A DNA stretch of 64,000 nt from Stictocephala bisonia (lineage: Eukaryota; Arthropoda; Insecta; Hemiptera; Membracidae), in the NCBI GenBank assembly GCA_035578905.1, contig JAQJVL010000573.1, positions 310,001 to 374,000 on the forward strand, written 5' to 3'. Every line of letters starts with the position of its first letter. Positions within the stretch are counted from its first letter, which is position 1. This document shows, in pieces, positions 5,462-46,641 of the stretch. The position numbers and the translations under genes were made by a program. Under the pieces are notes generated by a model that worked only from the letters and a program-made list of their open reading frames with translations, did no database searches and was not told the DNA's origin.

Positions 5462-5780
5462 TTTTTTAACTATTAGTGATTTATTCCGACATAACTGACA
5501 TTACCTCACAGTCAATGTTTTTGGAACGAGGAGTGAGGGGGCGTCAAGACCTCTTTTGACCCGGGTGCCGTCAACGCTAGGGACGGCCCTGCTGTTGAGT
5601 GTGCTGTTAAAATAATTAAAAGAATAATTACCAAACAACAGGCTCAATTTGTAAATAATAACATCATGTCTAAATAACAATATATCTTTATTAATACAAA
5701 TAAATTAGACCCTCTATTAGACCTATGTAAAGAACTTCAGAAGTACAGGGTGGCAAAAAATATGGAAACGCTTTCACAAC
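5462..5780. repeat. 319-bp dispersed repeat, copy 1
   Basis: It is nearly identical to 10078-10398. It contains the right end of a hAT-type element (GGACGGCCCTG), the octamer CTGTTGAG, and the sequence flanking it. Only a right end is present at this locus, with no matching left end. Confidence 0.85.
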
Positions 5781-6780
5781 ATTACTTCAAAAGTAATCAA
5801 TCACTGTATAGTAAACATTATTTTTCATGATCTTTGGAAATAACCACTTTTTAAACTCTGATATGTTTTGAATCATCTCTACATTGGTGCCAAATGTTAT
5901 AGTATCGTGTGCTATATTTCAATATAAAACTTCGGAGAGTTAGCCTACATACTGGTTAGTTGAGTTGATGCTTTAGAATAAATCTAGAAACATTTGTTTT
6001 GTAGAAGTATTATTAAAAACTTAGGGCACAATCACACTGTTGTAAAAACAAAAATATTTTTACTATTCAATTTATTAAATTTTAAAATAAAAAGTATTCT
6101 TACTTTTGCTTTATTGTTGCAGAAATATTTGGGGCTAAACAGAATTGTTGAATCAACTTATGGTTGATATGCAAGTAATAGCATAGTGATTTATATCTGA
6201 ATTTGTCTATTTCTTGAATTATCAGTAATTTCGATCTTGATATTAATATTCTAGTATGAAATAGGTCTTTATTGGAAGTAAAAGTAAATTAAATAAAATA
6301 AAACTACAAATATTTTTATTTTATTGGAAAGTTTGCAACAAACCAATAAATGAATATAAAAAATGTAACCAGACGTATTGAACATTTACAAGATCTATTG
6401 TATTTTACTACTTTAAATCCTACAAACAATGGTTAAAATATGATTTATACCTGTTTCTACAAATGTTTGTAATTTTCTTACATTGCATCTGTTTGCAACT
6501 TGTCCAGAAAGTTGTCTAAATAAAAAAAAAAAACTTCTCAAGACATATCTTTGTTGTGCAATGTGCCATGCCAACAAAGATTATTTGGTACATTATACTG
6601 ATGTTGGCTACATGAGCCCAAAAACATATAGATCCACCAGTTTCTAAATATATAATAACAAGTCCAAGAAACTAATTGTTGATTCTGATTCTATAAATGA
6701 TATTACTTAGTGTAGTACTTACTACATTCCTGGACTAATTAGAAATAGTTTGATCAGTAATGTTAATGTTTTTACCTCAG
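5781..6780. other. Spacer before coding exon 1; 5' UTR exon and promoter not located
   Basis: AT-rich sequence without a recognisable gene. It ends in the polypyrimidine/AG acceptor at 6769-6780, which is the only functional signal I can support. Confidence 0.45.
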
Positions 6781-9900: not shown

Positions 9901-12900
9901 GTCCTCTCATGTAATACACCCTCAGAAGATTTCCTGATTCTTTTTTATCGAAAAGTCTACTTTGTTTAATTGAGACCTATCAGAGATATATGGCTGCCAC
10001 ACCAAAAGAATCAAGTTTCTGTATTAACAAAAATAAATAAAAAAAAAAACAAAAAAAAAACAATAAATGTAAACTAATTTTTTAACTATTAGTGATTTAT
10101 TCCAACATAACTGATATTACCTCACAGTCAATGTTTTTGGAACGAGGAGTGAGAGGGGCGTCAAGACCTCTTCTGACCCGGGTGCCATCAACGCTAGGGA
10201 CGGCCCTGCTGTTGAGCGTGCTATTAAAATAACTAAAAGAATAATTAACAAACAACAGGCTCAATTTGTAAATAATAACATCATGTCTAAATACCAATAT
10301 ATCTTTATTAATACAAATAAATTAGACCCTCTCTTAGACCTATGTAAAGAACTTCAGCAAATACAGGATGGAAAAAAATATGGAAACGCTTTCACAACAA
10401 CATTGTTTCTTTCCATAGTTAATTGGATAGTTAAATATTTGTTAATAATTGTGTTCCATAAAATATAAATTTTTATCAGAATAATTTACTTAAATCTGTT
10501 AAATAGCGGAGAAATAATATTGTTCAAATTAGTTACTTTGAAATTCAAATGACCACTACTCTGGAAAGAATGAACCTTTCGAAGTCTGGATTGTGGCAAT
10601 TGATTTCTCTTGAATAGACCTTTCATTTGATACCAAACTCGACCTAGGCTTACGTTGAAGATTTTCGTTCAACTCCTCATGGGCCGTCCTCCTGAAAAAA
10701 TGACATGTCTCTGATAGCGTCAAAAAGTATGTTATTTGTAACCATGATCATATACAAGATTTCACTTTTATTAGTAAATTCATACAAAAGTTGTAGAAGC
10801 GTTTCTATATATTTTTTTCTACTCTGTATAACAATAACAAGTAATGCTAACCTTAATTAAAAATAATTTGAATTTGTAGACAAAGGAAAACTTCTAAAGA
10901 AGCCTGAGCTGATTGGAGTAAGGCAGTGGTTTCCTGTGTTTCAATATTATTTAACAAGTAGGCAACAGATAAATCAATTTGCGGAGTAGCTAATTGTGTC
11001 TTTTAACTAAGGATTAACTCAAGAGAGCATACTTGGTCCATTTATGCCTATTTAAAACAATACCTATATCTTTTAGTTAAATATTACAGGTTAATTCTAG
11101 GGTACTAGATCAGCTGTTTTGATACTCTGGTCAGCTTATGTTGATAAACCACTATGGCACTGCAAAGAATGTGGTGTGTGTGAAAAGTGGAAAGTGTTTT
11201 AATTAGCATAATACATGTTGGTACATATACAGTACAAGTAAAACGTCACACAAAACAAATTTATTGCAATATAAGCACAAAATGCACAAATATACTACAA
11301 TGCAAGTACAAAATATTTGAGCATTTTGTACTTGTATTGTAATAAGTTTGTGTTGTGTGAGGTTTTACTTGTACTGTATATAAATAATCCATGTAAATAT
11401 TACACACTGCGTAAACGTTGCCTCGCTCTATACAATTTGTACAGCAGATACCCACCATCAAAGAGATTCAGAGGGTCTATTGTAATTTTTTGTCTTTAAT
11501 TTTCAGAGTATAGAAATATGAGGTTAGAATTATTTTGGCACTACAACTTCAAAATATATTCCCTCTGTGGTCATAATATTCATAAAGATAATGTTAACAC
11601 TTAACGCTAGATAATAGTTCACAACTGCGTACCAATTTTTCACAATTTGGTAATACCACAATTTTACCAATACCACTATACGTGTATGGTTGGGCGGATG
11701 GGATATTACCATTGTACTCAATTATGCTGCTGTATCTTGGTTATTTATCAGTAAAAAGAAACATTTGACTAGTGCAAATTGCAGTAAATTGATTATTCTT
11801 TAACTTTTTTCATAACAGCTTTAACATTTAGATTTATAAGCTATAGCTGAAAAACTGAAAAAAGTCACCATCAGTGAAAAAAACCTCACAAAATTTCATT
11901 GGTTTGTTAATATCTAAAACTTGGAGTCTACTATCAGACTACCCCATAAACAACATTCCAAAAGATCATTAACTTTGGAATGTTGTCCCTTTACCATCAC
12001 CTGCCACCTGAACTATTTCCCCCTGGTCTATTATTATTTTTATATTACATTCAATGGTGATCTAGAAAAAATGATTTTGAAGTTTATTGTATAATGATGT
12101 CATGGACAAGTTAAGACATTTTTCAGCAGAAGGGATATAAAATATAAAAGGTACACTTGTAGTTAATATATCTTAACTAAAACTGCTATGATAAAAATTT
12201 AACACTCTTTGCAATTCCTTGGTACAATTTTCAAAATTCAAAAGAAATATTTAAGAATTATGACCTTTTTTAAAAAAATACATCATGTAAACCTTTATTC
12301 AATCGGTTAGAAATATTAACAATGTCGTGTCTCTACCTTTAAATCCTGCTCTTTTCAAAAATAATAATGAATCATTAAATAGAGAAAAATACTGTCATGG
12401 ATATTGTACAAGGTACAAAAATAATTTTACATTTCTAAAGCTTGATACTTTTTGGAAAAAACGCCACATTATATGGCAATGAAACTCTATAATAAGCTGC
12501 CTTTGAGAATTAAAGAAATTGAAGATGGGACGAAATTTTAAAAAGATATCAAACAGTTTTTACAAATACAAAATATATTACTCTGTTAGTGAATATTTAA
12601 ATGATAATGAGGCCCAGTAACAATAATAAATAATGTAATAAAAATATAAAAAGAGCATTGTAACTTTTTTTGAAACTCTGTCACTTTAAACTTTCAACGA
12701 ACTTGTTCTAGTTTTAACTTTATTTTTAATTATTTGTAGTAAATTTATATTTTGACAATGTCACCTATTTTCTAGCTGCGCTAGACTATAAACTGTTATT
12801 TGACAAGAGAGATATGTTTCATTTGACAATGGAGGAATGGCCAACAAAAACTAAACATGGGCATTCCTCCATTATTATTACTTTGACATATCTCTATTGA

Positions 12901-15016: not shown

Positions 15017-18000
15017 TTTTATTTGCCACACAAATTTTACATCATTGACAATGTCATAGCAGCAGCTATTGCAATAGCTTGTGTCATACATACTAATTAC
15101 TAAAATTAGACTATTTATGAATCTACCAGTAGACTTTAAAGTCAAATTAGTAATAAAAAATGTGTACTTTAAAAATTAAAAATTAAGGTCAATTGCGTTA
15201 AAAAATTCATCTAAATTGTAAAATGGGTTTTTTAAAAGCCAGCAGTAAAATTTATTTTTGAATTCAGAAAAAGAGTACTGATTAATTTTAGGTTCCAAAA
15301 AATTGTAAATTTTAAGGGACAATACTATATGACTATCCAGAGTCTTATTCAAACGATAAAAGTCAATTTTAGCATTTTTCTTTCCACGTGTATTATAGTT
15401 ATGGAAAGATTGTTTGAATTTTAAGAATTCTGAATTTGTAATAGTATAAGTAACCAAGTCAAATATGTAAAGATTTATAATGGTTTGAAATTGGAAATCA
15501 ATAAAAAGTGGTTTGCAGTGTTCTCTGGAGTCACATTTCTTAAGAACTCTTAAAGCTTTTTTTTGTAAAGTTAATAGTTCTTTAATTCTGGTACAATTAC
15601 CATAAAGAACTAAACCGTACCTGAATACAGACTGAAAATATGCAAAATAGGCTGTTCTTATATAAATTTTTGGTACAATATCGTTCAATCTATTCAAAAG
15701 ATAAATTACCCTTGATAGTCGTTTATTTAAATAGTCTATGTGATCGTTCCAGGTTAGCTGATTGTCAATATAAACCCCCAAAAATTTAATCGAATCCACA
15801 AAATTTTCATCCAATGAAATAGAACTAGGCTTAAGATGAAATAGTATGTTTTTTGTTTTATTACAATTTAGCAAAAATCCATTCGAATTAAACCAATTTA
15901 AAGCTTTAGAAAGAGTCTCATTAGCCATAATTTCCAGATCATTAATGTTTTTGCTTACGTTAAAGAAAGTTGTGTCATCGGCGTAAAGAATAATTTTAGA
16001 ATCAATTGTCGATGGAAGATCATTGATATATATCAAAAATAGGAAGGGACCCAGGACAGAGCCCTGTGGGACACCCCACTCCACTTTCAATTCTTTTGAC
16101 CACCTTCCATTGACACAAACGGTTTGCCTACGGTTGTTTAAATAGGATTCAAAAAATTTTAAAGATGGTTTACAGAAACCATAATGTTTTAATTTTGCAA
16201 TTAGAATTTTACTTTCAACACAATCAAAAGCCTTGCTCAGGTCACAAAAAGTGGCCTGCGCAAAGGCTTTGTCTTCAAAAGATAGGTGAATTTGTCTGAC
16301 TAAGTTATCTAAAGCATTGAACGTTGATCTGCCCTGTCTAAAGCCGAATTGTGATGAATTAAAAATATTGTTGTTTTCTAAAAATGAGTAAATTTGTTTG
16401 TATACTAACTGTTCAATTAATTTTCCAAGTACCGGGATTATTGATATAGGTCGATAGCTCTGAGGATTGTGTTTTGGTCCATTTTTGTAAATTGGGCATA
16501 CACGAGAAATTTTAAGTTGATTGGGAAAAATGCCATCACTAAGCAGACGATTTACACATACTGCTAGAGGTTCAGTCAAACCAACAATAATTCTTTTCAG
16601 TAAATTATTTGACATATTATAAAAATCATTACTATCTGAATTTTTCATATTTTTAACAGCATCAAGAACATCTTTTTCTGTTACTGCTGACCATTTAAAA
16701 TGATTTAAACTATTATGGGTAGACCTATTGTCATCACTTAAAAGGTTTGGCAATTTACAATTTGTTTTAATTTTTATTTCCCTAACTGAATTAATAAAAT
16801 ACCTGTTCAATACATCAGGTTCAATGTTAGGCTCACTTTTCTTGTTGACTTCTGTGTTATATTTAATAACATCCCATGCAGCTTTGCATTTGTTTTTGCT
16901 AACTTCAATATATTTAACATTTGTGACAAACTTTGCTTCATTAATAGATTTTCTGTATTGATGTTTTAATTTTGCAAAACTTAATTTAATATCACAATTG
17001 TTTTTATCATTATTACATTTCATTAGACAATCTAAAAATAACAATCTATTTTTCATTTCAGCCAATTCAAATGTATACCAATCCTGGTTCAACTTCTTTA
17101 CTTCAGTAATACCTCTGAACGTATACTGTATTTCCCTTCTCAGCAGATCAAAGAATAAAAAAGCTGCTTATCATATACAAATCAATTCTAGTATATTTTT
17201 GAGATAATAAAACCCTTATATTGTAATACCAGTTTCCTCTTAATTTTCTCACATACCATCTGTTAATAATAAATAATTAAATTCTATTTTGAAGTTTTAC
17301 TAGCAAAGTTGTTATTATACGAATTGTTTAATGTTGTTTATGTGCAGTGGCTGTGGAGTGTGCTCATACTGTGCAAATGGACAATACCACTTGTGTCCAA
17401 ATGTCAACACTACTATCGGCATACTTAGCAATGGCGGTTGGGCCCAGTTCTGTAAAGTTCCTGCCCGCCAGGTTTACCTTATACCTGACGCCATGAGCTT
17501 CCAGCAAGGTTACCTTCTCTATAATATTTAGCTTAAGATATCCATATACAAACGGACCTTTAATGAAAACAATTTGGTATTAATCTTTCAGGAGATGTTT
17601 CCTAGATAAATACTTACACAGTAGGGTGGGCTGAAAAAAATAAATGTTTTTTTTTTCAAGTGCTATACCGCGAAAAACTTGCATATATACTTCATAAATA
17701 AAATGCAACTGAGAAAAAAATTATTTTTTCAATATCACGGTAGCGCAATGCAATTAAAATAGTTCGTTTTTTGAAAAAAACTTGTATTTTTAAAATTTTT
17801 TCTCCGGTGTAAAAACTTTAAATAATCAATCGCTATAGTGAAAAAACTGTATAATTTGACTTAGAAAACAGAAATACACAATGAACCAGTTTAAAAAACA
17901 ATGTTTACGGTAGCGCAAACAGCTTTAAATAACGGATAATTACGCTAAAAGGCGCAGTTTACAACACTGCCGTCCCGCGCGGAATGATTCGTTTTGTATG

Positions 18001-21000
18001 TGACTGTACCGTTTCCCCCACCACTCGTACCCAACCCACAATTCCTTGTGTTGTGTACGCTTGCTTCGCCATTTTGTGAGCTCGCGTCAGTGACTCGGCA
18101 GTGTTTGTCAGTGTCAAAGCTTCTGTTGTGTTACTTTTACTGTTACGTTGAGTGTGTGTTGAGTGTCATGGCTTTGTCCAAGAAAATTACGCGTAGTGAG
18201 TTTGATTGTCCAATATTCGGTTACCCAAAGGAACTACCTGTAAGTAAACTGCCTTCCTATGAAGACGTTTTAAAGTGCTTCTTTCTTGAACATTACAATT
18301 TAGCTGTGGAAACCAACAACAAATTGTTGAACAACAACAGTTTTTCACAAATTTCTAATATTGTTGCACCGAAAGTTAAGCAATTATTTGATAAAGCCTC
18401 AATACCAACAGTCTCCCTTTACAGAATTGTTCAAATGATCAATGCCTACAATAACAGTTACAGAGGTCTTATGAAGTCCTACAAACGAGATAAGGAAAAA
18501 GACTCGTTCAAAAAAAAAGTTGAAGAATTCAAGCAAAAGTCCTTGCGACTGTTTGATATCTCCGCATGCAAATGCACAATAACATTAGATTGCAATTGCC
18601 GAAAGGCCGTTGACTTGTGTGAGTGTCCGGTATCGATTGTTTGTACATGTGAGAAGTCAAAAAAAGTACCAGTCATTGAACTTAAGTTTTTGTACCTTCA
18701 AAGAGAACATAGTTTAGGCAAAATTGGTAACGTAGATGTGAAGGAGTCAAAAAAAATTATTCAAAGACAAAAAAGAAAAAACACTGAGTACAGCAGATGT
18801 CAGTCGAACGTTGACTCATTGTCACAGCCATCGTGCTCAAAAACTATGGAACCTACACAAATAGAAGACTTTAACTCAACTGAAATAAATAGAAATGAGG
18901 ATAGTAGCGATGAAGAAGAGTTTGAACCTGTTGTAAAGTCACCATGGCAGATGCGAGTTAAATTGACTAATACTGCGCTAACAAGTGATCGTTTTGGAGT
19001 TTCTGATAGAGCAACAGCTGCTATTGCTTCTAGCCTTTTGCAAGATTTTGGTATTATAACTAAAACTGAACATTCTAATGTTATTGATAAAAATAAAATC
19101 CGAAGGGGGAAAAAGGTTATCCGCACAGAACTGCAGGTGCAGAATAAGGCTGAGCTCAACACATTTCAAGGATTGTATTTTGATGGAAGGAAAGATGACA
19201 CCATTGTGATTGAGAAGGTAAATTCAAAGCATTTTCGGAGAGTGATTAAGGAAGAACATTATTCTATCATTCAAGAACCTGGATCCGTATATGTTGGTCA
19301 TGTTACACCTTGTTCTGGATCTGCTCAAAACATTGCCGACAGTATAATTACTTATTTGAAAAAAACTGGACTTTCCCTTGATGATTTAGACGTCATTGGA
19401 TGTGACGGCACCGTTACAAATACAGGGTGGAAAGGGGGCGTAATTCGAACAATTGAAGAAAAATTGAAAAGGCCAATGCAGTGGGCAGTTTGTCTCTTGC
19501 ACTTCAACGAATTACCACTCCGACACCTGTTCCAGTTTTTGGATGGAGACACTACAGGGCCTACAACATTTAAAGGACCTATCGGAACAGAGCTCAATAA
19601 CTGCGAAAAACTCCCCTTGGTGAAATTTGCTAGTGTGGAGTGTGAAATTCCAGATATTGACCGAAGCATATTGAGCAAGGACCAACAGTATTTACTGGAC
19701 ATAAGTTCTGCTGTACAATCAGGAATCTGTCCTATAGATTTATCTCACCGTGAACCTGGCCCACTCTCTCACGCAAGATGGCTAACAATGGCTAACAGGA
19801 TTCTAAGATTGTATGTGAGTGTTGAATATCCATCAGACGAACATAAAATCGTAGTTCATTTTATTCTGAAGTCATACATGCCTGTTTGGTTCAATATCAA
19901 AAAAAGCAAGTACTTAACTGATGGACCAGAACACATATTTCAAACTGTAAAATCCTCAAGATTCCTGCCTGAAAATCTGCTTCAAGTAATAGACCCCGTT
20001 ATTGAAAGGAACGCTTACTTTGCCCACCCAGAAAACTTGATGTTGAGTATGATAGTAGATAAAAGAACTCACATAAGGGAATTGGGATTGAGACGAATCA
20101 TAAAGGCCAGGACATCAGCACCCAAAAGAAAGTCAATTAGAGCTTTCCATCCACCCAAATTAAATTTTCAAGCCACAGAGTACAGTGAACTGATTGACTG
20201 GACTGCCACCACATTGTCACCACCACCATTACTAAGAAGAATCAGCGACGAAGAAATTCGTGCAAAAATCTTCACTGGGGACACCGCAGCTGAATGGAGA
20301 TTCGACAAATTTCCTTGTCATACGCAAGCGGTTGAACGATGCATCAAACTTGTAACCAGCGCTTCACAAAAAGTAGTTGGTTTTGAAGCAAGAGATGGGC
20401 TCATCCGAACTACACTACAGTCAAGAGCAGCTATGCCATGCTTTGAAAGCAAATCAGCCTTCAAACTTCCTAAACAAGAATGATTATGGACTTAGTGATG
20501 AAATATATCCTACTAATCAAAATTCCTTTTTGAATTTTCAATAACAATTTTCATGAAAGATTTGTAATGCTATGATTTAAGTTGATGCTAATAAACTATG
20601 TTAAAAGGAATTTGAATTATTAATTTGCAGTTGCCACACTTTAAACAACAAATAAATTAAAAGAAATCTTTTTATTAAAAGGCATTGTGAGTAAACTGTC
20701 GCAGGACGGCAGTGTTGTAAACTGCGCCTTTTAGCGTAATTATCCGTTATTTAAAGCTGTTTGCGCTACCGTAAACATTGTTTTTTAAACTGGTTCATTG
20801 TGTATTTCTGTTTTCTAAGTCAAATTATACAGTTTTTTCACTATAGCGATTGATTATTTAAAGTTTTAACACCGGAGAAAAATTTTAAAAATCCAAGTTT
20901 TTTTCAAAAAACGAACTATTTTAATTGCATTGCGCTACCGTGATATTGAAAAAATAATTTTTTTCTCAGTTGCATTTTATTTATGAAGTATATATGCAAG

Positions 21001-24000
21001 TTTTTTGCGGTATAGCACTTGAAAAAAAAAAACATTTATTTTTTTCAGCCCACCCTATTACACAGTATTTACAAGAAATGAAATTTTATTGAGAAATCAG
21101 TTCCAGAATATTGGTCTAATTTACTGAGTCTGTGTTCTGCAAGCCTGCTCAAGGACTAATGATTTCATGGATCAAAGTTCTTGTATTTATCTTGAACATT
21201 TTGTTTGAAGTGCCTTCCATGACTGTACTGTACTTTTAATTATAATTTTTAACGGATTTTCTTTCTTAGAATGTTGAGAACGGATGCTGAAATAATGAAC
21301 TCACTTTTAAAGCTTTTCCATACATATTTCTTACTACTAGTCCTCAGAAAACTATGCCAATATTTCTCTGTAATTTCATTATGATTAGTAATGACGATCA
21401 GTATGTTTGCAACAACAATATCAATCTAGCATTCTGGAAGTTTCCTGTGGAGTGCTGCAGAGATCAGTTTTGGGGCCTCTACTCATCATGTAATTGCATT
21501 GTTCATGGCTAATGATATTATTTTAAGTGTCTCGTCTATACTGTCGACACCACACACAGTCAGGCTCTTGCAGTTTTTAAAGTGAATCAAAATTAGGTTT
21601 AAAAGAGGCTGTCTGTGATTGAATTGGTTTTAAATGAAGAAAAAAACAATTACAGATTTTGGTCTTAGAGAAAAATCAAATTTACCTGTAGACTTTCAAA
21701 ATTGTTTAGGCGTAACCCTAGACCAAATACTTTGTTGGAGTCAACTATCTTTCCCTTAACAAATTCAAGCAAAAGTATTTTCGCTCTAAAAAGACTTTTT
21801 GGTGAGTTGAGGGCCTTGAGTTAGCATAATTTTGATAGTTGCAATCTCATCTAGGTAACAGCCTTATAGTGTGGGGAGAGCCTCTCAGGCAGTAGAAGGT
21901 TTTTGATAAAAAAGTTATTACAGGAGCAATCAATTACGAACATTATGCAATCCTTTTTAGGCTGCTTAATTTACTTCCTTTTTTTAGTCTTTATTTTTTT
22001 CATTGTTTTGATCATCATTTTGTTAAGATCAATCTGCAAAGATCATTACTAGAGACGAGGTCCTTAGTTATAACAACACTAGGTATAACCCTTTGATTGA
22101 TGTTCGACAACAGGCTATACAAGAGCAACTGACAAAAGTTCTCTAATCATGTTTTCCATGTTAAATAATAAACTAACATTAGGAATAAGACAGTTGTTAT
22201 TGAAAATTTAAAACTAATATATGTACATTATTGCTAAACCATCCTTTTTATAGTTTAAATGTGTTTATGACAAAACAATTGACACTAGAAGATTTTAGTA
22301 CAACTCCATATAAGTATCTTTCAGATCAACAAATGTCTTATATTATTGAATATTATTTAGAATGTTAGAATTATTACTGAGGTACCAATAATAATTGACG
22401 TAGACGCTTGACCATTTCATAATGATCCTTTATTACCAAAAGAATATCTCTCAATATCGTAACTTTCCCTGTTTTATTGGTGTTCTTGTTGATTTAGTTG
22501 CTCTTAATTACGATGCGATATACCATGTGTTAGGTTAAACTATTATATTCATGTTATTGTAATATAGCGGTGCTCTGTGAGCCTCTGTCGTGTGTTTGCC
22601 ATGGCTGGGACAAAATAGCGCCACTGCCTATTGGATCTACAGTCCTCGTGTCTGGGGCTGGGATCGTAGGAAACTTATGGATCAGTCTGCTACACCACTC
22701 TGGCCACCGAAAGGTCATTATCACTGAGCCTGTCACAGCACGCAAGACTCTCATTCAGCAGCTCAGTAAGAATTATTTTCATTTTTGCCTAAACTATATA
22801 TAAGTAAAATAAAAAGTTAACAGATTTACGGGCTAATAGTTGGTGACATAAAGAATTATTCATCTAACAAGAAACCTGTACTGTGACAGTTATTTATTTA
22901 TGTATAATAGCATTGATTTTACTATACATAGAAGATGGTTCCATCCAATTCTAAATCTTGAGGCATGGAATATGGGAGCGACCGTTCAGCGACCGGAAGA
23001 GGGCGAAATCGCCACAAGTTTTGACTGTTCAGTGCGCAACTTGTGAGTAGTAAAGGAAACTAATTACCCCTCTCATTCCCCCATTTCTTTCTCTTGAGTC
23101 GCTTGTCCGGAAGTACTTCTCGTTCTCCTCCCTGGCTGCCCAAATTGTCTACTGTGGCCAAGCCGATATTCCTTGTCCTTGACATTGTTTCTTGTGGTTT
23201 GTTGTGCATGCAAAGGCATCAGAAACTTCTAGTTGAGAGGGCAGAGATACTCACTATGTAGCCTTTAGGACGCTAGCACCCCTTAACACTATTTTTTGCA
23301 GGCTTTTATTTTTTTAAAACTGCAATAATGTATTAAGTGCAGGCAAGTAAAATCATTTGTCTGATATTTCCAATTTATTATTTTAAATAATGTTTTATAC
23401 AAAATATTTGGTTTACTGACTAGGTTTCTTTACCGACAATGTATGTATATGGGTGTATATAGAAACTGTATATATATGTATGGTACTTGCGACCCTTAGA
23501 TTATTTTGAGAAAAGTAATAAGGCTCATCATGAAATCCTAGTGAGAAACCCTTATTCAGGGATTTGTGTAAATAACAATTTCTGTACATTTATATTTTGA
23601 AATTTGGACTAACCATTTCGACCCTAGTAAAATTTAAAAAAATTGTACATTTCCCTGATGTAATAACATTGTGGTTGCGATGGACAGTTTATTTAAGCGT
23701 TTTAATGATAACCTCATTTAATTCATTAAAACCGTGATATTAAATTTTCAAGTAGGACCAGCGTAAAAACTGTTCAAAATTAACCAAAATAATTAATGAA
23801 TTAATCAGAAATCTTTTTGAACCAGAAATTATAGTTTCTTTACAATAGGGATTAAAAGTTCAAACTTAAGAAATACTTATTAAAGCCTTTTATTGTTTTA
23901 TTTCTTATGCTGATCAAATTTATTTTCTTGAGCCATAGTTTGATAAAACATTGGATTCTCCACAGCTTTTACACATACATTTAATTTTTTAGAGTAAAAT

Positions 24001-41012: not shown

Positions 41013-43231
41013 AGCTATGTACACATCGAGGACTTTAGCTCTGCGCGCGGAAATAAACTACTACCCATTCAACAAACAAACACAATATGTTTTACGGGTT
41101 GCGTTCATGCGCTCGCCGCTGAAACGAAGGCGCCAAAACTTCTTCCTAGGTTCTATATCGGTTACACTTTACTAATTGACAGCTAAACATGTATGGGAAA
41201 AGTATTATAAATTGAAAACATTAAATGTATTATGGTAACTCTATTTTTATAGTAGGTCGGAAAGTATGTAAATTTCACAAACACAAGAAACACATTATTA
41301 TTATTGCTATTATTCCTCTTATTTGTCTACTTCATTTAAAACGACTGTAATAATATACTTGGGCATTTTATTTTTGTAAATAGTTAGTAAAAAGTTGAGT
41401 AACTTATAAGTACTTTCTTATAATGAATATATAATGAATGTGAATTTTATATAATATGAATCTTATAATGATATATGAATGTGACTTACAATCATTTTAC
41501 TTCATTAGAGTTCTTCAATCCCACTTAACTCTTCCTCCTCCTCTGAAAGACCGTCACTGTCTGTATCAGATTCATTTCCAACTGATATAACAAATGATTC
41601 TATAACATTGTCTACTGGGGCTCTGCCGCTGCATAGTCTTTTTCTATCTTCTCCACATGCTTGCACTTTCCTAACCATTCTTCTGCACCCATTCTTGATA
41701 TTTTTTCTTCGCAGAGGGTTTTAGCTTGAGATATAGTACAGGACGTATTTCTCTTGGCTACATAACCTTTGACTTCGGCCCAAATTAACTCAATCCGATT
41801 GAGATCTGGGTGGTAGGGTGGGAGTCGTAAGATGTCATGACCCTCAAGTTTGACAGTTTTATCCAAGGCATATCGGAAATAATTTGGTTTATATAGCTCC
41901 ACAAGTTTGTACAGTTCAGATAAAAACTTATCGTCGCTGAATGGTATTCCTTTTTTTAAAAGCCACGCCTTCACATCCTGTCTCTTACTTTTTGAAGTAG
42001 GAGCCTTTTCAATTAGAATTTTATGGTAGGGTGCATTATCGACTACCAGTACTGAATTTGGTTCCAAATTGGGCAATACTTTGTCCTTCATCCATTTCAT
42101 AAATATTTCCCCAATCACGTTGTCGTGGTAGTCTCCACTATGGTTGCTCGCTTTGCAGCAGGTAAAAGCGTTAGGCACGAACCCTTTCTCTCCGCCCGCA
42201 TGGATAGTTATCAATCTTTCACCCTTAGAAATTGGAACGTGTAACCCTTTATTTGAGCCATCTGAACAAGTTTTATTGGAAACGTGAGAATATAGTATGT
42301 GAGACTCGTCTAAATAAATTATTGGACGTCCTTCCTCTCTGTAGCTTTTCAACGCTCTCAAATATGTTATCCGTTTTTCTCGGATTTCTGGTTTTTCAAT
42401 TAACAGCCTTCTATTGTTTGCTGTCTTTCTCCAAGTAAACTCTAAATCCTTTAATATGCGTCTCAAACTTTTATCACAACTCTGAAAGTTTATTCTTTTC
42501 TTTTAGCGCCTCCCTCAATAGTTTTACAGTTGGTATTCTATGTTCTTCCATATGAAAATTGTACACTAGTCTTCTCACTACACAGTTATAGAAGTCATCT
42601 AAATAGTTTACTGTTTTACGTCGTTGTCGGTTTTTGTTTGGCGTAGTAAAACTTGCCTCGCACTGACCACATGCAATGTTTTAAACTCACTGTTTATTTG
42701 AGTTACAACTCGCTCTGATACCCCCGTAGCTGCTGCTGTTCTTTGACGAGACTTTGCCAACGGAATATTTAAAGTTTTTGGGTCTGCCTCTTCCTTCATA
42801 AATTTAAACACGTTACTGATAATTTTGCGGCCCTGACTATGAATTACTCTATTCTTGACTAGCGACTTGAACTCATCAGTCATTGTGGAAAATTAACAAA
42901 TACTACAACTAACAAAATATATAACAAATAAAATACTCGGTAACTACGGCTATATTAATAATAATCGGTGTAAACCACACGCACTGGTTGAACAAATAAC
43001 TAGATACAAATGACAACCACACTCATTACTGTCACATAAAAGACTGATTTTAGCCAGGAAGTAGGTAGGGTTAGTTGTTATTTTCATTACGAATCTAATT
43101 AAAGAGGTTGTTGCAGGTGAGTCAGTGTTTTCAGGACAGAGCGCATAACACTACCCCACTACCCCTCCCGCCTATCACCACGCAGCCAAGGCCACGCGCA
43201 CAGCTAAAGTCCGCGATCTGTATACACAGCT
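41013..43231 (-). mobile_element. DD82E (Sailor-type) transposon, copy 2, with terminal inverted repeats
   Basis: 41013-41050 and 43192-43231 are inverted copies of about 39 bp sharing GAGGACTTTAGC/GCGGACTTTAGC, AGCTRTGTAYACA and TGCGCG. Between them lies one minus-strand transposase. The total of about 2.2 kb is in the range of an autonomous element. A TA target duplication is expected but the exact border is not resolved. Confidence 0.75.
41505..42883 (-). pseudogene. DD82E transposase, copy 2, nearly full length with frameshifts
   Basis: The start MTDEFKSLVKNRVIHSQGRK and ATGVSERVV mark an N-terminal helix-turn-helix. A frame change near 42630 leads to LDDFYNCVVRRLVYNF, and another near 42460 to the 284-residue catalytic frame. 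That frame has YLDESH (first Asp), VVDNAPYH (Asp codon 42040-42038) and LNRIELIW (Glu codon 41791-41789). Exactly 82 residues separate the second Asp and Glu. A last change near 41625 gives an acidic tail (DTDSDGLSEEEEE) ending at 41505. All three catalytic residues are kept, but three frame breaks make this copy inactive. Confidence 0.82.
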
Positions 43232-45195: not shown

Positions 45196-45539
45196 AGTCT
45201 GGCCAGCATTGTCTTTAAAAAAATAAGGGCCAATAACACCACCTGCCCAAATGGCGCACCAAACGGTAAGTTTTTGTGGATGAAGGGGCACACCAACAAA
45301 TTCTTTTGGGTTTTCATTACTCCAAATCCGACAATTCTGTTTGTTGACAAAGCCGCATAACCAGAAATGAGCCTCATCACTGAAAAAAATCTTGCCTGCG
45401 AAAGCTGGGTCACGTGTTATCTTATTTTGAGCCCATTCAACGAAATCAAGACGCTTGCGATAGTCTAAACGTTTCAGTTCTTGCACCAATTGAATCTTGT
45501 ATGGATATAGGCGTAGATCCTTCCGTAAAATATTCCTTA
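45196..45539 (-). repeat. Inverted duplicate of the mariner catalytic region (left arm)
   Basis: Translated on the minus strand, it gives RNILRKDLRLYPYK through FFSDEAHFWLCGF to FFKDNAGQT, identical or nearly so to the plus-strand arm at 45863-46206. It has no start or end of a gene of its own. Confidence 0.9.
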
Positions 45540-45552
45540 TTATTGTGTAACC

Positions 45553-46641
45553 ATGAACAGACTTACAAATGAAGAGCGTTTGCGAATAGTGCAAATTTAT
45601 TTTGAAAACCGCAGTTCAGTTCGGGCAACTTACCGAGCTCTTCGTCCGATTTACGGACCTCATAATCGTCCATCAGAGTCAGGTATTCGAGCTTTGGTTA
45701 ATCGTTTTCGTAATACCCACACTCTTGTTGACAAGCATCGGCAGAGACGCCGCACAGTAAGGACCGAAGAGGCTGTTGATGCTGTTGCTCGTAGTGTTGA
45801 AGAGGATCCAAGTGTGTCGATTCGTCATCGTGCGCAGCAATTAGCGATCTGCTATTCAACTCTAAGGAATATTTTACGGAAGGATCTACGCCTATATCCA
45901 TACAAGATTCAATTGGTGCAAGAACTGAAACGTTTAGACTATCGCAAGCGTCTTGATTTCGTTGAATGGGCTCAAAATAAGATAACACGTGACCCAGCTT
46001 TCGCAGGCAAGATTTTTTTCAGTGATGAGGCTCATTTCTGGTTATGCGGCTTTGTCAACAAACAGAATTGTCGGATTTGGAGTAATGAAAACCCAAAAGA
46101 ATTTGTTGGTGTGCCCCTTCATCCACAAAAACTTACCGTTTGGTGCGCCATTTGGGCAGGTGGTGTTATTGGCCCTTATTTTTTTAAAGACAATGCTGGC
46201 CAGACTGTTACGGTAAACGGTCAATGCTATCGGGCAATGTTACGGGACTTTTTCGTTCCTCAGCTAAACGAACTTGAAGTGGATTTATAAAATGTCTGGT
46301 TCCAACAAAACGGCGCGACGTGCCACACGGCAAACGACACAATTGGCCTCTTGGCAGAAACATTTGGTGAACGTATCATCTCATTTAGAGGTAGTGTCAA
46401 CTGGCCCCCACGGTCGTGTGATATCACGCCAACAGACTACTTTCTGTGGGGATATGTTAAGTCTCAAGTATACGCTGACAAGCCACAAACTTTAAATGAA
46501 TTGGAAGCTAACATTCGTCGAGTTATTGGCGGAATTCAACCACAGCTGCTGGAAAGAGTATTCGAAAATTGGACTACTCGATTGGGCTTTCTACGCGAAC
46601 GAAATGGAGCCCATATGCCAGAAATCATTTTTAAACGTTAA
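45553..46641 (+). pseudogene. mariner-like transposase with one stop and a catalytic Asp-to-Asn change
   Basis: A single frame of 362 codons is broken only by TAA at codon 246 (46288-46290). Codons 1-110 are the paired helix-turn-helix DNA-binding region (TNEERLRIVQIYFENRSSVR). The catalytic core has SDEAHF (Asp158), QQNGATCHTA (Asn253, normally Asp) and CDITPTDYFLWG (Asp290). Spacing between the second and third positions is 36. The C terminus reads RNGAHMPEIIFKR. Both lesions make the protein inactive. It is otherwise well preserved, so inactivation is recent. Confidence 0.87.

Follow-up and report, generated by a model that had tools for sequence, protein, structure and literature searches.

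The hAT transposons are described with short terminal inverted repeats, given as 10–25 bp (PMC3942097), and with excision through hairpins on the flanking DNA (PMC6900584). Hermes, a hAT of Musca domestica, inserts at sites with the consensus nTnnnnAn (PMC2803484), and several BED domains of its transposase bind subterminal repeats to locate the left end (PMC10368747). BuT2, a further hAT, has 12-bp ends and a five-exon gene for a protein of 643 aa (PMC3942097), whereas long inverted ends that bear transposase-binding sites are reported for Mutator-like elements (MULEs; PMC3310237). Here, we analyzed a 64,000-nucleotide stretch of DNA from Stictocephala bisonia (contig JAQJVL010000573.1, positions 310,001–374,000; hereafter the window) and found a 3,436-bp transposon at 17622–21057 that is a recent insertion with an 8-bp staggered duplication, a target preference, and a conserved end architecture. 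We estimate a probability of about 0.82 that it is an autonomous DNA transposon of the cut-and-paste type, from a lineage that is widespread in animals and uses a hAT (Hermes-type) transposase core. Its long ends are modular, at ~170 bp per module, and each module carries a conserved box, which is a new observation.

The transposon is flanked on both sides by perfect 8-bp duplications, TTACACAG, and its tips are TAGGGTGGGC, starting at 17622, and GCCCACCCTA, finishing at 21057. An earlier, sequence-only reading of this DNA had reported the perfect 8-bp duplications, TAGGG/CCCTA ends, and an uninterrupted frame of 771 codons, all of which were found where listed below, the frame running unbroken from an ATG at 18168 to a stop at 20483. 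It had also described equal 354-bp inverted repeats with few differences; the repeats are indeed equal and differ little (98.3% identity, 4 mismatches and 2 gaps), but each is 358 bp long. The features of the element are as follows.

17614..17621, no strand: left target-site duplication TTACACAG, read from the letters; the empty site carries TTACACAG once
17622..17979, + strand: left terminal inverted repeat, 358 bp, starts TAGGGTGGGC
17737..17748, + strand: box 1 of the left end, ACGGTAGCGCAA, offset 116, candidate transposase-binding site
17907..17918, + strand: box 2 of the left end, ACGGTAGCGCAA, offset 286
18168..20483, + strand: transposase gene, 771 aa in a single frame; 490 relatives at E ≤ 1e-3
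20700..21057, − strand: right terminal inverted repeat, 358 bp, finishes GCCCACCCTA
20761..20772, − strand: box 2 of the right end, offset 286
20930..20941, − strand: box 1 of the right end, offset 117
21058..21065, no strand: right target-site duplication TTACACAG, read from the letters

The host genome (1.68 Gb, 11,105 contigs) was searched for further copies and empty sites, as had been proposed from the sequence, and both were found. It contains 17 near-identical copies of the window element (lineage sub1), one of which is split by an insert, and because of these copies the element is real and beyond chance. Both ends were found in 16 of the 17, with a perfect 8-bp duplication in all 16 (15 distinct sites); copy L021 (contig C273), which is missing 4 bp from one end, was left unscored for duplication. 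Among the 16 copies, pairwise divergence reaches at most 0.50% (median 0.23%), and 11 of them retain an intact 771-codon frame. Copies this similar, together with the intact frames, point to recent and perhaps current activity, in agreement with the earlier description of an autonomous, recently active element. The difference between the two arms of a copy was rejected as a measure of age, as arms differ by 0.6–2.5% inside each of the 16 copies versus the 0.23% median between copies. When the ends alone were used as the query, 34 matches at ≥97% were obtained, two for each of the 17 copies, and no solo end was present among the best 40 of 65 candidates scored.

A paralogous empty site lies 41 kb upstream on the same contig and is a 95% match to the joined flanks of the window copy. 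The match takes in 260 bp on the left side of the junction and 18 bp past it, uninterrupted and with TTACACAG once, and a separate 30-bp piece farther on corresponds to the distal part of the right flank. Another copy (L015, G000:C372:543562-548195) sits in a minisatellite whose adjacent units display the uninterrupted target. Because the empty site and these units carry the target uninterrupted, insertion with an 8-bp duplication is shown. Two identical copies with identical flanks (L017 and L018, G000:C4040:23404-32027), 3,989 bp apart on one contig, look like a duplication, arising either as a tandem segmental duplication or as an assembly artefact.

Six lineages with matched ends of ~300–470 bp were examined besides sub1; their counts are lower bounds, drawn from the best 40 of 169 DNA and 58 of 800 protein candidates scored. 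Of 22 further loci fetched (L025–L047 minus L028), seven (L026, L029, L031, L036, L037, L044, and L046) were dropped for having no matched end pair and are absent from the counts of ends, duplications, and boxes. The sub2 lineage has seven elements with ends of ~300 bp and broken frames in all seven; sub3 has eight with ends of ~470 bp, and its 771-aa frame is intact in L038, L039, and L041; sub4 consists of L048 and L049, with a protein of 760 aa; and C98 is represented by L050, whose 753-aa protein shares 46% identity with that of sub1. The remaining two lineages are L052/L054 and L053/L055. Every element examined starts with TAGGGTGG. A chance palindrome or an assembly artefact as the source of the long ends was rejected in view of the 17 copies and these six lineages. 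The sub1, sub3, sub4, and C98 proteins have 43–61% mutual identity, and the nonsynonymous divergence (dN) between sub1, sub3, and sub4 is 0.30–0.36 with the synonymous divergence not estimable, a dN that fits purifying selection but does not measure its strength. Over 565 aa, the sub4 transposase of L048 (G000:C3:287500-292200) shares 96% identity with a protein predicted from the moth Scirpophaga incertulas (P0039), a likeness that may reflect either host kinship or horizontal transfer.

Perfect 8-bp duplications, which are expected of hATs, flank 35 of the 38 elements scored. Among 34 distinct sites, 31 have T at position 2, 31 have A at position 7, and 28 have both (nTnnnnAn), for which the chance is ~3e-22 given the window base frequencies and with sites and positions treated as independent. 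This consensus leaves out L027 (one-base shift) and L053 and L055 (one mismatch each), and L017/L018 are counted once. The preference is that of Hermes-type hATs. Tip and BuT2 (Tip compared by description) also make 8-bp duplications and are of a similar size class, although the window element differs from BuT2 in its 358-bp ends and single 771-aa frame. Long inverted ends are typical of MULEs, and the ends described here are long as well, with binding likewise supposed; this would favor a Mutator-like (MULE/IS256-type) element with a core nearer IS256. The 8-bp duplications and the nTnnnnAn pattern at 28 of 34 sites argue against such an element, as does the protein.

A search with the window protein gave 490 relatives at E ≤ 1e-3, and a search from a distant family member gave 396 (the best 120 listed in each case). 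Among the matches listed, the lineage reaches insects of several orders and a leech, the named relatives being from Diabrotica, Brassicogethes, Frankliniella, Daktulosphaira, Cacopsylla, Scirpophaga, Amyelois, Diatraea, Spodoptera, and the leech Helobdella. Residue conservation was read from an alignment of the window protein with 193 relatives, some of them fragments, and is expressed over rows with letters. The relevant parts of the protein are as follows.

18168..18809, + strand: N-terminal domain, residues 1–214, helical with a CxC...CxC pair, presumed DNA-binding in place of a BED finger
18567..18650, + strand: C134-x-C136 ... C159-x-C161, candidate zinc ligands; 183/183 rows with letters, 11 gaps
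19182..19184, + strand: D339, first catalytic aspartate (FDGRKD), proposed counterpart of Hermes D180; 192/192
19404..19406, + strand: D413, second catalytic aspartate (GCDGT), proposed counterpart of Hermes D248; 191/192; same register in the non-significant hhalign alignment
19491..19502, + strand: C442-x-x-H445, proposed counterpart of Hermes C265-x-x-H268; 193/193; same register in the non-significant hhalign alignment
19776..19781, + strand: R537-W538 in the helical insertion, proposed counterpart of Hermes R318-W319; 193/193; matched by order and context, not by superposition
20334..20336, + strand: E723, catalytic glutamate (HTQAVER), proposed counterpart of Hermes E572; 185/187; same register in the non-significant hhalign alignment

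The predicted fold has an RNase H core with the DDE residues, a CxxH motif, and an all-helical insertion that bears RW, as in the structure of a hAT, and Hermes is its best structural match, over 336–347 residues, with the predicted counterparts of DDE, CxxH, and RW in the same order. The transposase is therefore predicted to be Hermes-like in fold and catalytic residues; the sequence-only reading had made its case depend on an RNase-H-like fold, and the predicted Hermes-like core contains one. In the structure comparison, Hermes scores 5 Z units higher than IS256 and aligns ~70–90 more residues; moreover, the window protein has no match to a MULE transposase in Pfam, and the RW pair is invariant (193 of 193 rows with letters). 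Given these differences, we regard a Mutator-like element as highly unlikely.

A divergent P-superfamily element would also make 8-bp duplications, and ranks two and three in Foldseek go to the P transposase of Drosophila (E 5.5e-4 and 7.3e-4). Long ends occur in Galileo, which belongs to the P superfamily. Galileo is named as one of three P-superfamily members in a paper that uses the phrase 'long terminal inverted repeats' (PMC4168063). However, the window protein has no match to the THAP domain, which together with a GTP-binding insertion marks the P superfamily, and the insertion sites fit the Hermes preference; the P transposase also falls outside the 50 rows of the structure comparison in which Hermes scored, which is uninformative alone. 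We give this origin hardly any credence.

The N-terminal domain of the window protein was not recognized as a BED finger, and the 358-bp ends, and apparently this domain, set the element apart from standard hAT families, as first proposed. We infer that the CxC-bearing domain binds DNA and replaces the BED finger. KDZ (Kyakuja-Dileera-Zisupton) proteins carry N-terminal CxC cysteine clusters, and the CxC...CxC motif near the N terminus of the window protein would suit a member of that group. Zisupton, like the element here, makes 8-bp duplications (PMC12730594), but in fishes and Pristionchus its proteins reach 1,400 aa and are encoded by several exons (PMC9297572), compared with 771 aa in one frame. 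Furthermore, the window protein has no KDZ (PF18758) or CxC match in Pfam up to E 10, and both domains are absent from ten more relatives and from the 25 of 42 families listed for the alignment rows. A KDZ search of the host genome gave no match, but neither did its 14 controls, and it is hence uninformative. Membership in the KDZ group appears very improbable.

In sub1, each end carries the 12-mer ACGGTAGCGCAA twice, at offsets 116/117 and 286, and these are its only four occurrences in the 64-kb window. Other lineages have a box at matching places: AGCTAGCGCA then AGGTAGCGCA in sub2; TTCC(A/G)GT(T/C)(G/A)CGCA in sub3, with a third copy at 452–453; TTCCGTTCGCGCA in sub4; and AGGTGCCCCAA in C98, at offsets 117 and 287. 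When ten arms were compared, box 1 started at 114–117 in all ten and box 2 at 284–287 in eight, with 273 and 274 in the other two. The left end of C98 resembles the sub1 and sub4 left ends in the outer 21–23 bp alone and has no detectable similarity to four other left ends, yet its boxes keep the positions of the other lineages. The inverted repeat runs slightly past the last box, and is ~300–365 bp long with two boxes and ~470 bp with three.

The box rule was derived from five lineages and then tried on four elements of two more, in which the best repeat was the box at 161–172 bp in seven of eight arms and ranked second in the eighth. A full test covered 44 arms of 22 elements in seven lineages, with the window copy standing in for all 17 sub1 copies; elements that share a lineage do not count as independent. 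The box repeat ranked top at 159–173 bp in 39 arms. With 200 shuffles per arm, the strongest repeat was equalled 0–1 times in sub1, sub3, sub4, and C98, and 0–6 times in six of the later eight arms. None of 300 random window stretches had a top repeat at 159–172 bp scoring ≥14. Plain AT-rich similarity as the source of the box repeat was rejected on these shuffles (0–1/200 in the four lineages, sub2 being weaker) and the 0/300 random stretches. In five of the 39 arms (L050 L and the sub2 left arms of L027, L030, L033, and L035), the top repeat is another motif near offset 26–41, also spaced ~170 bp apart, and this suggests that whole ~170-bp modules were once duplicated. Across the 41 arms with spacings of 159–173, 37 are at 167–173 and four at 159–162, about one helical turn shorter; this is only a hint of helical phasing, as the four short-spaced arms may stem from one or two events.

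The boxes are most likely candidate transposase-binding sites, and may be the counterpart of the Hermes subterminal repeats at a much wider spacing (~170 bp). In the mechanism that we propose, the D339-D413-E723 center would cut at the TAGGGTGG tips, excision would probably pass through a Hermes-like hairpin on the flanking DNA, and insertion occurs with an 8-bp stagger at nTnnnnAn sites. The boxes would be bound by the N-terminal CxC domain, in the role that BED fingers and subterminal repeats have in Hermes, and the inverted repeat may stay long because it needs to reach past the last box.

Several results weigh against this reading. Pfam gives no match for the window protein up to E 10 (no hAT, MULE, THAP, KDZ, or CxC domain), and the sole hAT-like Pfam trace in 60 family proteins, the window's included, is a weak DUF4371 match (E 0.097; 25 of 42 families listed for 50 of them). 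The hAT C-terminal dimerization domain, PF05699, had no match in the window protein (E 10), in ten further relatives, or in the 50 alignment rows among the 25 of 42 families listed; those ten relatives lack any Pfam transposase domain, and matches in the 50 rows are scattered, the most frequent in 3 of 50 among the families listed. Comparison by hhalign with 24 and with 44 Hermes-type hATs (of 60 Hermes relatives found) gave a non-significant probability of at most 1.8%. Foldseek ranks ISCth4 and the P-element transposase first, with no Hermes chain in 50 rows. In the ends, the strongest repeat of the four sub2 arms tested was equalled by 17–78 of 200 shuffles, and that of two left arms among the later eight by 37 and 45. 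Five of the 44 arms fail the box test: the box repeat ranked second in L034 L, L035 R (also at a spacing of 150), and L052 L, and other top-ranked spacings were 189 in L032 L and 145 in L034 R. The score is 12 in five of the 39 arms (L025 R, L027 R, L030 R, L032 R, and L033 R), under the 14 of the random control.

Our verdict is that the element works like a hAT yet should not be filed as a member, because it does not group by sequence with the Hermes-type hATs compared or match PF05699, though its predicted structure and target sites are those of a hAT. Its long ends depart from a feature that is usual in hATs but does not strictly define them. The protein is predicted to be Hermes-like in fold but too divergent for the usual family models to recognize, and relatives are annotated as 'uncharacterized' or 'hypothetical' protein because no Pfam transposase domain recurs in the 60 family proteins scanned. 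The lineage thus joins the hATs through predicted structure and target choice rather than sequence, which bears on the spread of the hAT fold. The conserved register of the end motifs makes testable how a transposase finds its ends through several internal sites, as worked out for Hermes.

An existing catalogue entry for the family is quite possible, and there is a considerable, if less than even, chance that this is a hAT family already in Repbase or Dfam and missing from Pfam, which concerns novelty and is compatible with a hAT-type mechanism. Given how common the lineage is in insects, repeat libraries probably contain some copies, and UniProt names one leech relative (P0132) a DUF4371-domain protein, though the Pfam scan finds no match there. 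On the other hand, sequence profiles do not link the protein to Hermes-type hATs, and no named family of this kind was found among the matches listed in the open-licence literature, including by protein motif and terminal sequence (subscription journals, Repbase, and Dfam being outside the scope). More tentatively, the lineage could be an unnamed animal-wide superfamily built on the hAT fold, in which a CxC helical domain replaces the BED finger and the ends are read via boxes in a ~170-bp register; we lean against this proposal. If it were true, gain or loss of modules would lengthen or shorten the inverted repeat, and the spacing would reflect a fixed architecture, such as nucleosome-wrapped DNA or a ring-shaped transposase.

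Other features of the window lie outside the transposon. Next to it is a frame of 638 aa (15176–17167, − strand) that contains a reverse transcriptase domain (RVT_1, E 2.5e-35), and a frame with a DDE_3 match (E 3.6e-12; 41612–42502, − strand) is apparently a relic of another DNA transposon. A direct repeat of ~320 bp, 95% identical, is present at 5462–5781 and 10078–10399. A 344-bp inverted duplication, 100% identical (45196–45539 and 45863–46206), overlaps an open frame with a DUF4817 helix-turn-helix domain and represents either a recent event or an assembly effect.

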